Below, one piece after another: positions 7,434-57,591 of a DNA stretch of 64,000 bases (the first letter of the stretch is position 1; each line of letters opens with the position of its first letter). The position numbers and the translations under genes are program-made. The notes below the pieces were generated by a model. That model did not search any database. It had not been told where the DNA came from and saw only the letters and a list, made by a program, of their open reading frames with translations. This DNA is from Nitrospinaceae bacterium (GTDB lineage: Bacteria > Nitrospinota > Nitrospinia > Nitrospinales > Nitrospinaceae): the NCBI GenBank assembly GCA_024644405.1, contig JAHELC010000038.1, positions 1-64,000 on the forward strand. The letters run 5' to 3'.

Positions 7434-7495
7434 AACAGTAAAGGTGTAGGTAATTTCCTGATAAAACGTTATTTTAAGAGTTTGAGGTAAGTCAG

Positions 7496-7687
7496 ATGAG
7501 CCAGCCCAGGCAACCCGAAAAGAAAGCGCGCGATCAAATTAAAAGCAGCAAGAAGAATGCCCGCATCGGATTCTTGGAATCGATGGGGGACAGTGGTTAC
7601 GACAACCGGACCGACCCGAATTACTGTTTTGAGGCTTTGCGGAATTTCATCAAAAAAGAAGAGCCCGATGAAGAGAGCCTCGGCTGA
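7496..7687 (+). CDS. Small hypothetical protein, 63 residues
   Basis: A soluble, highly charged small protein: a basic N-terminus (PEKKARDQIKSSKKNAR), a central GFLESMGDSGYDNRTDPNY stretch, and an acidic tail (KKEEPDEESLG). No known motif. Support comes from its setting: a promoter-like sequence upstream, GAGGTAA before the ATG, and a strong terminator 70 bases after the stop, so it looks like a monocistronic unit. Function unknown. Confidence 0.6.
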   Translation: MSQPRQPEKKARDQIKSSKKNARIGFLESMGDSGYDNRTDPNYCFEALRNFIKKEEPDEESLG

Positions 7688-8794: not shown

Positions 8795-8941
8795 AGAGAG
8801 AACCGCCTAACATCAATTCTGCTGTCGCGTGGTAGCAAGACCTTCTGGAATTAGTGCAGTTAGTACGGTCTTTGGAGGGGAGTTTAGATGATCCGGGTTA
8901 CCGGGGGTATCAGTTGAAGTCTTAATTTCATGTAGGAAAAA

Positions 8942-8956
8942 TACCTAGTTGAGGTA
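8942..8956. promoter_or_regulatory. Palindrome resembling a NarL/LuxR-type regulator site
   Basis: TACCTAGTTGAGGTA: arms ACCT and AGGT around a five-base centre. A related palindrome (TACCTAATTTAGGTG) stands at 45103. In both places it is preceded by a run of A and followed within about ten bases by TCTTCT. NarL heptamers have the form TACYYMT. The site lies between the response regulator gene and the divergent side of the cupredoxin-like gene. Confidence 0.5.
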
Positions 8957-8997
8957 GGAGTCTTCTCCCTGGCGGGAAGTGGAGGCAAGAGGCAAGC

Positions 8998-9651
8998 TCA
9001 GAGCAATTCGTGCTGAATGGCGTAGTGAATCAATTCCGCATTTTTTTTCATTTTCATCTTTTCCAGGATGCGGGTGCGGTGGGTGCTGATGGTTTTGACG
9101 CTCAATGACAACTCTTTCCCAATCTCGGTGAGGGATTTGCCGGTCGCAATCATGGAAAAAACCTGGTATTCGCGGTCGGACAAAAGCTCGTGCAGAGGTT
9201 TGTCGACATTCAAAAAATCAAAGGCCAGTTTCTCGGTGATATCGGCACTGGCATAATTTCCGCCCTGGGCTACTTTCCGCACCGCATCGAGCAGGGTGTC
9301 GATGGAACTTTCCTTGGTCAGGTAACCGGAAGCCCCGGCTTTAATAAACCGTACCGCATACTGGCTTTCGGGGTAAACACTGAGGATCAAAACCGGGATT
9401 TTGGGGAACTCGGACTTCAACTGCTTGAGCACTTCCAACCCGCCTTTTCCCGGTATGGAGATATCCAGCAATACCAGGCTCAAATCTTGTTCCCGGACTT
9501 TTCCCAGGACATCGTTGCCGTTTTCAACTTCCCCCACCACCTCGATATCCGAGGTGTCGCCGAAAGCGTTCTTCAGCCCCTGCCGGAACAAGGGATGGTC
9601 GTCTGCGATGAGAATTTTAATTTTGGATTTGCATTCGGTTGTCACGTTCAA
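8998..9651 (-). CDS. NarL/FixJ-family response regulator
   Basis: A protein of 217 residues. Receiver domain at 11-125 with the acidic pair D17-D18, phosphoacceptor D63 (LLDIS) and conserved lysine in YLTKES. LuxR-type helix-turn-helix at about 150-212 (LSDREYQVFSMIATGKSLTEIG..., VKTISTHR). It acts as a DNA-binding transcription factor when phosphorylated. Its ATG overlaps the stop of the sensor kinase by four bases (9648-9651), so they are a coupled pair. The kinase has a GAF domain, so the signal may be cytoplasmic (redox, gas or small molecule). Targets are unknown; see the palindromes at 8942 and 45103. Confidence 0.92.
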   Translation of the reverse strand: MNVTTECKSKIKILIADDHPLFRQGLKNAFGDTSDIEVVGEVENGNDVLGKVREQDLSLVLLDISIPGKGGLEVLKQLKSEFPKIPVLILSVYPESQYAVRFIKAGASGYLTKESSIDTLLDAVRKVAQGGNYASADITEKLAFDFLNVDKPLHELLSDREYQVFSMIATGKSLTEIGKELSLSVKTISTHRTRILEKMKMKKNAELIHYAIQHELL

Positions 9652-11249
9652 CTCCTGCTGATTTGGACCACAACGGTCGTTCCTTTTTGGGATTCGGTTT
9701 GAAAATCAACTTGTCCTCCCCAAACCCGGGCGCGTTCCCGCATGCCCAGAATTCCCAGGGATTTTCCATTAAGATGTTTGGAGTCTATGCCGATTCCATC
9801 ATCCTGCACCCGGAGAGTGAGCAGGTTCGACTCATCCTCCAGATTAACTTTGACATGACGCGCCTGGGCATGACGCGCCACATTGTTCAGGGTCTCCTGA
9901 AAAATACGAAACATGGTGGTGGATCGGGCGCGGTCAATCTCGGGTTCAATCAGGTTCAGCTGTAAATCGCAGCGGATCCCGGTACGCCGCTCAAATTCCT
10001 TACCCTGCCAGGAAATGGTTTCCGCCAGACCCAGATCGTCCAATATAGGCGGTCGCAGGTCTTGAATCAATTGTTTTACGGTGGGAATGGTTTGATCGAC
10101 CAGACTGAGAATCGTTTTCGCGTTGTTTTGCAGGGCCGGGGCTTGATCGCGCAGTTTTTTCTGCAGTAACGAAATTTCCAGTTTCAAAGCCGTCAGCACC
10201 TGCGCCAGTTCGTCGTGAATTTCGCGGGCGATGCGGGTGCGCTCCTCTTCCCGGACCATTTCAAGTTGATGATATAAATTGAGCAACTGCTGCCGGGAAA
10301 GGCGGTCTTCCTGCTCCGCCCGCTCACGCTCAACCACCCGCCCCAACAGAGTCCCGATATGGGACATGATCTCCAGCAGTTCACTTTTGGGTTCGGCGGC
10401 CTCTTCGGAAAAAAATTCCATGACCCCCACCACCTCTTCCCGGATCAGCACCGGAAATGCAAAACCCGCCTTCACCCCGAGGTTTTTAGACAGCCGTGCG
10501 CGCGGAAAATTCGGATCCTGCGTCACGTCGATGATCCACGCCGGTTTACCGCTCACCAGCACCCGGCCGGGAAGCCCGATGCCCGGATCGAACGCAGTCG
10601 CTTCGGATATTTCCCGAAATGTTTCAAACTGGTCCAGATCGTCTAAATGCCAAATGGTCGATGACACCAAAGGAGATTTGGCGTTATCGTCCACCAGATA
10701 CAAATGCCCCACCGGCCATCCGGTGTGTTTGCAGATGCGCTGGAGGCAGTATTGAAAAGTTTCGGTTACGTTGCGGGCTTCGTTGGAGGCCACCGCAATA
10801 TCTTTGTGCAATTGGACAAAAGCGCTCTCCTGTTGCAACAGACGGTTGGCCTCATTCAATTGAATTGTTCGATCCTTGACCCGTTCTTCAAGATGAAGGT
10901 GAGCCGCAGCGAGTTTTTTTTGAGAACGATTTTGAAGCTGGCAGAGAAAATAGGTCATCCAGAGTGTGAAGATGGATAAAAAGCGGTTGAGCAACACCTT
11001 CCAGATTTCACCGCCGGCAGGAGACAATAAAAACCCTGCTATGATGAGAAGCGTACCCAGAATGGCTCCTCCCAGAAGCAACTTCCGGTTTCCGGCGAGC
11101 AGACCCAACAACACCAGAAGGATATAAAGCATGCCATCGGCCACCCCGGTGGGAATAAAGGTATCGGCTAAAAATATAGAAACCGCTAAAAAGATCCAGA
11201 CGGCCGTGGTGAGCATAGGGAATTGTCTGAACTTGTTCTTCATGGGCAA
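9648..11249 (-). CDS. Sensor histidine kinase with GAF domain (NarX/HisKA_3 class)
   Basis: A protein of about 530 residues. Four or so hydrophobic segments lie within residues 12-115, followed by a coiled coil, a GAF domain near 160-300 (FDPGIGLPGRVLVSGKPAWI), a HisKA_3 dimerisation helix with the phosphorylated histidine in REIHDELAQ near 345, and a HATPase_c domain (ETLNNVARHAQA, DDGIGID). It phosphorylates the adjacent NarL-type regulator. The frame opens with TTG at 11249; the ATG six bases inside, at 11243, is the more usual start, and neither has a strong ribosome site. The membrane part is short on periplasmic loops, so sensing probably uses the GAF domain. Confidence 0.9.
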   Translation of the reverse strand: MPMKNKFRQFPMLTTAVWIFLAVSIFLADTFIPTGVADGMLYILLVLLGLLAGNRKLLLGGAILGTLLIIAGFLLSPAGGEIWKVLLNRFLSIFTLWMTYFLCQLQNRSQKKLAAAHLHLEERVKDRTIQLNEANRLLQQESAFVQLHKDIAVASNEARNVTETFQYCLQRICKHTGWPVGHLYLVDDNAKSPLVSSTIWHLDDLDQFETFREISEATAFDPGIGLPGRVLVSGKPAWIIDVTQDPNFPRARLSKNLGVKAGFAFPVLIREEVVGVMEFFSEEAAEPKSELLEIMSHIGTLLGRVVERERAEQEDRLSRQQLLNLYHQLEMVREEERTRIAREIHDELAQVLTALKLEISLLQKKLRDQAPALQNNAKTILSLVDQTIPTVKQLIQDLRPPILDDLGLAETISWQGKEFERRTGIRCDLQLNLIEPEIDRARSTTMFRIFQETLNNVARHAQARHVKVNLEDESNLLTLRVQDDGIGIDSKHLNGKSLGILGMRERARVWGGQVDFQTESQKGTTVVVQISRS

Positions 11250-44656: not shown

Positions 44657-44722
44657 CAATAAACTCTCAAGCCGTTTTCCTGTCACTGTTGTGGGGGGAG
44701 TTTTTATCAACGGCTCCTCTCA

Positions 44723-44803
44723 TCAACCGCCCATCATTTTGTAAAGAATATAGAGGACCAACACCACGCCCATCATGATTTTTTTATTCTGGTCCAGCTT
44801 CAT
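44723..44803 (-). CDS. Tiny membrane protein, 26 residues
   Basis: MKLDQNKKIM then a membrane helix (MGVVLVLYILYKMMGG). AAGGGA stands seven bases before the ATG, inside the end of the preceding tiny gene, whose stop lies 15 bases upstream. Single-helix small membrane proteins are often subunits of larger complexes. Function unknown. Confidence 0.5.
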   Translation of the reverse strand: MKLDQNKKIMMGVVLVLYILYKMMGG

Positions 44804-44818
44804 AGGCGATCCCTTGAA

Positions 44819-44938
44819 TTAAAGCGGTGCGCGGGGAGCGATGGTCGGCTCTCCACTCAATCCCATAAAAAGCATGACGAACAAAGCCACCAGGAAAAAC
44901 AGGGATGCCACCAGAATTACAATCGAAGATTTTTTCAT
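44819..44938 (-). CDS. Tiny membrane protein, 39 residues
   Basis: MKKSSIVILVASLFFLVALF and on to VMLFMGLSG form one or two membrane segments, then a short proline-rich tail (EPTIAPRAPL). GGGGGAAGG is placed before the ATG. First of a pair with the gene at 44723. No match recognised. Confidence 0.5.
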   Translation of the reverse strand: MKKSSIVILVASLFFLVALFVMLFMGLSGEPTIAPRAPL

Positions 44939-45102
44939 TCCTTCCCCCGATTTAGGATAGGCCTATTATAGGCTTCGCCAGACGAAGTGTCGATGGCGTT
45001 CGATCTTTATCCAATCCTTTGATTTCATCACCTCAATTTTCGGCCTGTATGTCAAACTTCAGGGTATGCAGTATGGAGGAAATCCGATTGCGTGTAAAAA
45101 CC

Positions 45103-45117
45103 TACCTAATTTAGGTG
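45103..45117. promoter_or_regulatory. Palindromic regulator site upstream of 45212
   Basis: TACCTAATTTAGGTG, a near-perfect ACCTA-ATT-TAGGT palindrome related to the one at 8942. Its centre is about 41 bases before the start predicted from the TATAAT at 45139, the usual position for a class II activator. Confidence 0.55.
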
Positions 45118-45138
45118 TGTCTCTTCTGATTTTTTCGG

Positions 45139-45164
45139 TATAATAAATATTAGCAAGATATAAT
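45139..45164 (+). promoter_or_regulatory. -10 elements before the gene at 45212
   Basis: Two perfect TATAAT boxes at 45139-45144 and 45159-45164. No -35 match stands in front of the first one; the palindrome takes its place, so the promoter may need an activator. Confidence 0.5.
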
Positions 45165-45211
45165 ATAAGCATACCGAATTAGAGGCTCATTTTCCGGGAA
45201 AGTAGGTTCTA

Positions 45212-45625
45212 ATGTTTACCAAAAAACAGCAACCCAAAAAAACTCCGGTTAAGGAGGACGAGTATCTTTTCTCGGTGAAAGCCCGGGAAGGTGTTAGAGG
45301 GGGTTCTCATGAATCGTCGGTATCAAGAATGTCTCCTTTCCTGGGTGCACTGTTATTTTTTTCCGGCGGTTTTGTTTTATTGTTTTCAGGGGTCTACGCC
45401 CTTACCGTCTGGTGGCGGATCATACCTCAATTTGAATTTTGGGGATTTATCGTTTCGGTCGTTTTATTTCCGATCACCATCCCCCTCTCCCCGGTTTATC
45501 TGGGTGTTGAAGGGGATTGGGGACCCGCCGCCGTCATTCTCTCCGGATGGGTCCTGGGATATCTATTAATGGTGACCGGCAACAGGTTTTATAAGCTTTT
45601 CGGAGGTGCCCCACCTCGTCGTTAA
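45212..45625 (+). CDS. Membrane hypothetical protein
   Basis: 137 residues. A basic N-terminus (MFTKKQQPKKTPVKED) and three or four hydrophobic segments: FLGALLFFSGGFVLLFSGVY, FWGFIVSVVLFPITIPLSPVYL, AAVILSGWVLGYLLMVTG. No known family. It has a palindromic regulator site and AT-rich promoter region upstream, so its expression is probably controlled. Confidence 0.65.
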   Translation: MFTKKQQPKKTPVKEDEYLFSVKAREGVRGGSHESSVSRMSPFLGALLFFSGGFVLLFSGVYALTVWWRIIPQFEFWGFIVSVVLFPITIPLSPVYLGVEGDWGPAAVILSGWVLGYLLMVTGNRFYKLFGGAPPRR

Positions 45626-45757
45626 CTTCCCCGGATTATTCCTTTTCCCCTCTACCAGAACCTTACAACACCTCCTTACCCGTGTTTTTCAAAAGTTGTT
45701 GAAATTATATGACCCTTTCTTGCAAGTGTCCCCCAACCTGTTTAACATGGCGGGATT

Positions 45758-46594
45758 ATGGAAGGGACGAATGCAAAACCCTGGCAGGGACTGGGCGCGG
45801 ACATCGACGCCCAACTGTCGCCGCACGAGATGCTGGTCAAGGCCAAGCTCGATTTCAAACGGCCGTACAAATCCCCTGCGAACCACGAGACGTTCCGGTT
45901 CTTCAAGTCCTTTGCCGAAGGGGGAGAGGCGCACATCCAGACGGTCGGGCAACTGGACAATGGCCGCGTCATCTGGGCGCTGGCCGGGTTGAACGCCCAG
46001 TTCACGTTGAACGGAGCGGACCCGGTGGCCGGGTACCTGCTATTTTCGTCCCGCGACGAAAAACGGGATACGGTTTCCATGCAGGTGACAGCAGTCCGGG
46101 CAGTGTGCGGCAACACCTTCCAGGTCGCGAGTGAAGGAAGATCTCTGTTCAAAAACACCTTTCGGAGGAAGTTCATACCCACGCCTCCTTTTCTCTCACC
46201 CGCAGCCACTCACCTCGACGACAAAATGATCCATAAAGCCAAAGAGAATATCGGCCTGGCCCGGGAAGCAATCGCCGCCTTTGCCGCCGATGCCGAACGC
46301 CTGGCCGATCTAAAAGTGGATGACGCGACAGCGCGCCGGTATATGTCCGAGGTTTTTCAGGCAGAAAAATCAGCCGAGAAAAAAACCGACAGGGCAATTG
46401 AAGCGATGCACAAGGCTCCGGGGCAAGACCTGGTATCCTCCTCCATGACGGCCTGGGGCCTGTTGAACGCGGTGGCCTACACAGTCGATCACAAACTGGC
46501 AAATAATCAGGATTCGCGCCTGCGCTTGGCCTGGTTCGGGTCGCACGCGGACATCAAAAAAAGGGCGTTCGATCTGGCTCTGAAATTGCTATAA
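45758..46594 (+). CDS. DUF932-like protein
   Basis: 278 residues. The pattern of DUF932 phage/plasmid-like proteins is visible: PWQGLGADIDAQLSPHEMLVKAKLDF near the start, then GRVIWALAGLN, YLLFSSRDEK, TAVRAVCGNTF, and a long helical C-terminal part. The short first domain and the end AYTVDHKLANNQDSRLRLAWFG fit the TIGR03299 type. Function unknown. Composition is not strongly different from that of its neighbours. Confidence 0.7.
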   Translation: MEGTNAKPWQGLGADIDAQLSPHEMLVKAKLDFKRPYKSPANHETFRFFKSFAEGGEAHIQTVGQLDNGRVIWALAGLNAQFTLNGADPVAGYLLFSSRDEKRDTVSMQVTAVRAVCGNTFQVASEGRSLFKNTFRRKFIPTPPFLSPAATHLDDKMIHKAKENIGLAREAIAAFAADAERLADLKVDDATARRYMSEVFQAEKSAEKKTDRAIEAMHKAPGQDLVSSSMTAWGLLNAVAYTVDHKLANNQDSRLRLAWFGSHADIKKRAFDLALKLL

Positions 46595-56972: not shown

Positions 56973-57323
56973 TTAAATGGAGTTCCTGGTTTTCTCAAAA
57001 ATTTCGTTAACAATATCTTTCACTTTGGTTCGGTCCGCAGGCGACCCCTTGGTAAAAATAAATCTGAGTTGATCGAAAATAAGGTTTATCTCCTCCTGAT
57101 CCATATTGGAAACGATTCGCTTGGGTTCGGTGCCCTCCATAATCCATTCGTAACGGAGGTTGTAGCGCCTGGCCACTTTTTCGGCCCAAGCCCTGGGAAA
57201 CTGACCGCGTTTTTTTGCCCCTGAAACGGAAGCCTGCTTGATCCCAAGGAATGAGGCAAGCTGTTCCTGGTTTTGAATCTCGGTTTCCAAACGGATTCGG
57301 TTGAATGCGTCTATGAATTGCAT
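56973..57323 (-). CDS. Phage CI-repressor-like HTH protein
   Basis: 116 residues. Helix-turn-helix at about 10-60: QNQEQLASFLGIKQASVSGAKKRGQFPRAWAEKVARRYNLRYEWIMEG, like the DNA-binding part of phage CI or Cro-type repressors with a LexA-like start (IRLETEIQNQ). The remaining 50 residues are an acidic helix. No peptidase domain. Lies inside the segment flanked by the aspS duplicates. Likely regulates the mobile element. Confidence 0.8.
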   Translation of the reverse strand: MQFIDAFNRIRLETEIQNQEQLASFLGIKQASVSGAKKRGQFPRAWAEKVARRYNLRYEWIMEGTEPKRIVSNMDQEEINLIFDQLRFIFTKGSPADRTKVKDIVNEIFEKTRNSI

Positions 57324-57591
57324 GTTCTCTCAGCTGGAAATTCATTGTTCCGGCACACTACCTGGGTGTCTTCTGTCGATCCAAAATTGTTCTTCTCAGC
57401 TTGTGATAGACTCAATTTTAAAATCCGAAGCTCATTAAATTAACTTAAGCCTAAATAAATTAGGCATGTCCTTCAGAAAATGCACAACTTGGTTTGGTTT
57501 TGATTGTATTTTTGTTAGGAAGTTCATAGAATTTAAACAGATCAAGTTGATAAATCGATAGCATTTTGTCGCACGCCCTCGGAGGTGTCTT

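Follow-up and report, generated by a model that had tools for sequence, protein, structure and literature searches.

Does the palindrome TACCTAATTTAGGTG at 45103-45117, in the 64,000-nt stretch of Nitrospinaceae DNA analysed here (the window), act as an activator site for the adjacent gene 45212, and is it bound by the NarL-type response regulator encoded at 8998-9651? The first-pass annotation of this DNA had proposed both, pointing to the distance between the palindrome and a TATAAT, and to a related site next to the regulator gene. To answer these questions, we consider the palindrome and the segment that holds it, then the conserved elements near the regulator, and finally how the one compares with the other.

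The palindrome at 45103 and its promoter letters

Direct reading of the letters confirmed the palindrome, a feature without strand, whose core at 45104-45116 reads ACCTAA-T-TTAGGT, two perfectly inverted arms around a 1-base loop. It is followed on the plus strand by two TATAAT hexamers, a possible -10 of gene 45212 at 45139-45144 and a second putative promoter element at 45159-45164. The palindrome centre, 45110, lies about 41.5 bases upstream of the start implied by the first hexamer, in agreement with the ~41 bases originally given, and about 61.5 bases upstream of the start implied by the second. The claim that a -35 is absent also held, as a consensus scan of 44700-45900 listed no plus-strand promoter with a -35. 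Relative to its implied start, the TATAAT at 45139 would place the palindrome at the distance of a class II layout, with the two TATAATs competing for that role.

How unusual is this arrangement? Counting arms of 6 with loops of 0-8, nested repeats included, the window holds 254 inverted repeats, 33 of them with a loop of 1. A repeat of this class is found at -45 to -38 of one of the 19 perfect TATAATs in the window, against a mean of 0.52 such repeats per bin near TATAATs (58 bins of 7 bases, -200 to +199). The proposed distance to the implied start stands; the geometry is not over-represented, and with so many such repeats in the window the arrangement is neat yet not improbable. The motif put forward in the first-pass annotation, with up to 2 mismatches, gave 17 matches in the window compared to 7.9 ± 3.15 in shuffled sequence (palindromic places are counted twice), a number attained by one of 100 shuffles. 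In the 2.98-Mb genome, ACCTANNNNAGGT occurs at 4 places, of which two fall inside the window, and its 5 oriented matches compare with 69 for the reversed control pattern, so that the suggested genome-wide scan finds no enrichment. A search for a leader hairpin at 45151-45215 yielded nothing notable (z-score -0.86). We conclude that the palindrome at 45103 is ordinary, most likely a chance occurrence that happens to precede a lineage-specific gene and its presumed promoter.

Elsewhere in the window, an intergenic inverted repeat, GCCTAA-N5-TTAGGC at 57449-57465, lies ~125 bp upstream of the minus-strand gene 56973-57323, which encodes a Phage_CI_repr helix-turn-helix domain (PF07022, E 2e-5) and of which the repeat is possibly the operator.

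An unshared segment with an orphan gene

Comparison with related genomes (blastn to loci L038 and L043, together with reading of L038) delimited a segment of ~718 bp, 45013-45730, to which no strand is assigned and which holds the palindrome, the presumed promoter and gene 45212. In the same-genus genome G009, 16 bp replace the whole segment, and in G011 its place is taken by a different gene, TPR-like by eye; the site, the presumed promoter and the gene therefore form an unshared segment. The gene itself (45212-45625, plus strand) is an orphan ORF of 137 aa, likely a membrane protein with three hydrophobic stretches and weak support from codon usage. Its coding signal of -0.07 per codon exceeds that of the other plus frames and is unconvincing because one minus frame scores higher (-0.05). 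No homologues were found in Pfam (at cut-off), NCBIfam, PHROGs, plasmids or viral contigs, and a search of 77 genomes of the phylum returned the gene itself and two weak matches (E 4.6e-4 and 8.9e-4) within larger ORFs, with no clear ortholog among them.

Lineage-specific genes can carry their own control sites along, and the palindrome, a perfect inverted repeat directly upstream of a TATAAT, could be an operator linked to this inserted segment and bound by a repressor or activator other than the NarL-type regulator. Two results argue against this: no regulator gene was recognised in 45013-45730, where 45212-45625 and a 92-aa frame that overlaps it are the only complete ORFs of any size, and ACCTANNNNAGGT was matched on both strands at no further place in the genome besides the palindrome itself. 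We therefore regard such an operator as improbable.

Just outside the segment, on the minus strand at 44724-44937, are two tiny membrane-type ORFs of 39 and 26 aa, matched wholly or partly in G011, G009 and G004, with a sigma-70-like promoter at 44993-44965 that agrees in 11 of 12 positions.

A conserved half-site array beside the regulator

The gene at 8998-9651 (minus strand) had been described as a NarL-type regulator, and profile matches to a receiver domain (PF00072, E 4e-28) and a GerE domain (PF00196, E 4.7e-17), together with its PDB relatives, among them EvgA structures, bear this out as a NarL/VraR/EvgA-like response regulator. It overlaps by 4 bp the gene of a sensor histidine kinase on the same strand (9648-11249; GAF, HisKA_3 and HATPase_c domains, HisKA_3 with E 3.1e-16). 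Receiver, GerE domain and HisKA_3 partner are those of the NarL/FixJ family with its LuxR-type helix-turn-helix; the best NCBIfam model for the regulator is UvrY/SirA/GacA, with a score far under the cut-off. Orthologs with 90-92% identity are present in four same-genus genomes, and the genome itself encodes three more relatives at 50-53% identity. No close ortholog was found in G004, G006 and G007, genomes that are 72-78% complete, and inspection of a distant receiver-domain match in G006 and G007 gave no result.

Between the regulator gene and two genes for small proteins, we found a tandem array of half-sites, TCCTACCTCAACTAGGTATTTTTCCTACATGAAATTAAGA (8920-8959, minus strand), which reads CCTA-N7-TAGG-N7-CCTA-N8-TAAG and is conserved across orthologs. 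The first of the two genes past the array, P0004 (8384-8794, minus), encodes a protein with a hydrophobic N-terminus, and the second, P0003 (7858-8298, minus), one with a signal-peptide-like start; the predicted fold of P0003 has a mean pLDDT of 65 and no PDB match at E <= 0.001. The related site reported beside the regulator, the palindrome TACCTAGTTGAGGTA at 8942-8956, 42-56 bases past the end of the regulator gene on the minus strand, falls within the array. It was right in that a conserved, presumably protein-bound element is present, and wrong as to the conserved unit, which is the half-site array. Indeed, the palindrome ACCTA-N3-TAGGT was considered as the conserved unit and rejected, as it is absent from the same place in the four same-genus orthologs, even allowing 1 mismatch.

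In the five-way alignment of these arrays the half-sites are invariant, and the same-genus copies keep TCCTAY-N5-YTAGG, TAGG-N7-CCTA and CCTAY-N8-TARG. The tandem pattern CCTA-N7-TAGG-N2-T-N4-CCTA gave 8 matches with up to 1 mismatch in 12 family genomes (62 for the reversed control); the exact pattern occurs once each in our genome (G000), G005, G008, G009 and G010, always directly past the regulator stop, and the three one-mismatch matches fall elsewhere. The exact array is thus present in every same-genus genome found to have a close regulator ortholog, five in all with our own.

The conservation extends to the promoter. Among the 20 loci returned, we retained 13 from close relatives in Nitrospinota and excluded 7 more distant ones. 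A CCTAY half-site precedes CTGATAY in all 13, by 45 bases in 12 and by 44 in L100, and a second CCTAY lies 23 bases before it in six (L085-L088, L090 and L100). CCTAC and CTGATA elements also occur past the regulator in L013 and L014, sister-genus orthologs outside the 13 counted. Downstream of the array is a core-promoter-like element, TGATACC-N19-TARACT (8881-8912, minus), always of 32 bases, which is exact in nine of the 13 loci and in the window; L086, L092, L093 and L096 deviate. Its spacing does not fit ordinary sigma-70, and among 167 loci it occurs only at the regulator-adjacent promoter. The P0003 gene lies downstream of the array in 11 of the 13 loci; in the other two, L085 and L089, the contigs stop 202 and 332 bases past the regulator.

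Further down, the regulator operon is followed at 7445-7462 by TGTAGGTAATTTCCTGAT, a near pair of array half-sites scoring 19.2 bits, close to a 63-aa ORF that starts near 7497.

A second array at the P0003 paralog

Of the 12 family genomes, ten encode a paralog of P0003 at another locus, one copy each (L136-L145), and no P0003 match of any kind was found in G005 and G011. Our own copy (G000:C28:16933-17343) is preceded by an array of its own, TATAGGAAA. All ten loci share a TTGACT-N16-TATACT promoter with TAGGA 22-23 bases before TTGACT, and further TAGGA copies occur at 45-46 bases in eight and at 68-69 bases in eight; the paralog-type promoter was not found in the contig-edge fragments L146 and L147. 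In our genome, the last half-site copy forms TAGGAAAAATCCTA, which ends 8 bp before TTGACT.

Scans with paralog-type patterns lead to the same promoters. Among the 12 matches of TAGGAA-N16-18-TAGGAA in the 12 genomes (reversed control 24), ten lie at the paralog promoter, in six genomes, and the others are in L148, upstream of an NHL-repeat gene, and in L158. A scan of our own genome with TAGGNWWWN2-3CCTA found 10 oriented matches (39 with the reversed control) at 6 places, namely the regulator and paralog promoters, two tRNA-Ser genes and two positions between genes. Since these totals, like that of the tandem pattern at the regulator, do not exceed the reversed-pattern controls, the evidence for the arrays lies in where the matches fall and not in their number. 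The two arrays are in phase and differ in orientation, with CCTAY at the regulator promoter and TAGGA at the paralog, a point against the regulator as the binder.

Taken together, conservation, fixed spacing, gene order and the similarly phased array at the paralog gene make it likely that the regulator at 8998-9651 is linked to the array at 8920-8959. Under this model, the phosphorylated regulator, the putative binder, would occupy the half-sites as successive dimers at two-turn steps; the bound dimers would contact the polymerase from a place beside the -35, as in BvgA promoters; and the P0004-P0003 genes would be switched on through the array, activation being in our view a better guess than repression. 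It is rather unlikely that the array instead serves another NarL-family regulator, with the adjacent two-component system controlling other targets. G004, G006 and G007 do have arrays before the paralog gene with no close regulator ortholog detected, so another regulator may bind the paralog arrays, and the three relatives at 50-53% identity in our own genome also speak for this reading. Against this, the array is found wherever the genus has a close ortholog, inside a conserved gene order, and a signature scan of the stretches surrounding the paralog gene recognised no LuxR-type gene.

Several further pairs deserve mention. Half-site pairs at 1501 of L148 (G001) and of L118 (G003) precede the same NHL-repeat gene in a sister genus, and this gene may be a third member of the regulon. 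In our own genome, TAGGTAAATACCCTA (L170, 1501; C32) lies before a gene whose product, by eye, resembles outer-membrane proteins, and TAGGAAATCTCCTA (L173, 1501; C36) lies between two divergent ORFs.

The 45103 site measured against the arrays

Could the regulator, besides its likely link to the array at 8920-8959, occupy 45100-45117 with one dimer at -41.5 and activate a -35-less class II promoter of gene 45212, much like its own downstream genes? One point in favour is a shared unit, CCTACCTAATTTAGG (CCTAC-N6-TAGG; 45101-45115, plus), common to this site and to the array at 8944. The unit is rare, its three oriented copies in the genome being at 8944 and 45101, both intergenic, and inside one gene, and at both 8944 and 45101 it reads toward the downstream gene. 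The position relative to the TATAAT and the lack of a listed -35 also fit. Of the looser patterns, CCTA-N7-TAGG has 6 places in the genome, 45101-45115 among them, and CCTA-N8-TAGG likewise has 6, from which the CCTAC subset was taken further. Over the 12 genomes, CCTACN{6,7}TAGG found 58 oriented matches and its reversed control 936; of the 24 whose contexts were read (L045 and L106-L128), 15 lie inside an ORF of at least 120 aa and 9 do not, and two, L107 and L127, are half-site arrays. One half-site of the 45101 site equals half-sites in L093 and L096.

We also scored the site with a half-site pair matrix built from 51 half-sites chosen by hand from 86, a set that excludes our own regulator copies, keeps our own paralog copies and does not include L092, L094 and L095. 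The 45101 site reached 13.8 bits and ranked ninth in the window, and four of the eight pairs that outscore it are the array at 8920-8959 itself. Leaving the array aside, 5 pairs in the window score this high, compared to 1.7 ± 1.1 per 64 kb in an order-3 simulated background, where the largest count in 30 runs was 4 and none reached 5, a result that favours a role for the site. Column-permuted matrices applied to the real window, however, gave 4.3 ± 3.5 pairs, with 5 or more in 116 of 300, so that the score, like the geometry, is at the level of chance.

There is no array at 45103, only a single pair with no second one in register, and it is flanked by AAAAA where the same-genus arrays have T-tracts. 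Measured by hand from where each half-site starts, the distance to the first TATAAT is 38 bases for CCTA and 27 for TAGG, and to the second 58 and 47 bases, whereas the array at the regulator promoter has CCTA at ~72 and ~50 and TAGG at ~61 and ~38 bases before the -10, and that at the paralog promoter has TAGG at ~44, ~67 and ~90. The phase of the 45103 site agrees with neither conserved array. Along with the absence of the segment from G009 and the lack of a clear ortholog of gene 45212, these findings argue against the proposal that one regulator controls both sites. We consider this binding model quite unlikely and, equally, control of gene 45212 by the regulator unlikely. Still more doubtful is the idea that a newly acquired membrane gene, 45212, was captured into a BvgA-like secreted-protein regulon via a single class II site.

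On balance, it is probable that the palindrome at 8942 is a fragment of a real cis-element, and that the one at 45103 is a chance palindrome and not a target of this regulator. The 45103 site itself thus matters little. The by-product of its analysis is a conserved, promoter-phased cis-array with a two-component system and two unannotated small-protein families in uncultured Nitrospinota, relatives of the marine nitrite oxidisers, and the array motif makes the targets of the regulator testable in vitro without culture.

Comparison with known systems

In the library searched for work on Nitrospinota and Nitrospina regulators, no paper describing such a system was listed. The sites can be compared with those of better known members of the family. 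NarL binds 7-2-7 sites, inverted TACYYMT heptamers two bases apart; at 45103, a single base separates the arms and the seventh position departs from that consensus. The EvgA box has the consensus TTCYTACA-N3-TGTARGA. Its CCTACA-N3-TGTAGG form has the CCTA-N7-TAGG frame of the shared unit, but the inner ACA/TGT bases of the consensus are not conserved in our array.

The UvrY/GacA box, TGTAAG-N6-CTTACA, is the 18-bp inverted repeat recognised by another response regulator of this family (PMC4682653). Compared with that box, the half-site here is CCTAC/GTAGG and not CTTACA/TGTAAG, the arms point the opposite way, and no single 18-bp repeat is conserved in the array alignment.

BvgA is a NarL/FixJ-family regulator of Bordetella, at whose promoters inverted heptad half-sites (primary site of Pfha, TAAGAAATTTCCTA) bind dimers spaced 22 bp, the nearest one abutting the -35 (PMC7250471). 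Similarly, TAGGAAA/TTTCCTA half-sites recur here every 22-24 bp, keeping a constant register with the -35, and the paralog promoter has, as judged from DNA layout alone, the BvgA-type arrangement of in-phase pairs at ~22 bp. In contrast to the BvgA promoters, the paralog spacing is mostly 23 bp, and the half-sites at the 8998 locus alternate in direction 11-12 bp apart, before a promoter without the usual -35; the single pair at 45103, with no repeats in register, does not have this architecture. By its sequence, then, the regulator belongs to a known family, and its putative arrays resemble those of BvgA in layout and the EvgA box in half-site, and are distinct from the UvrY box.
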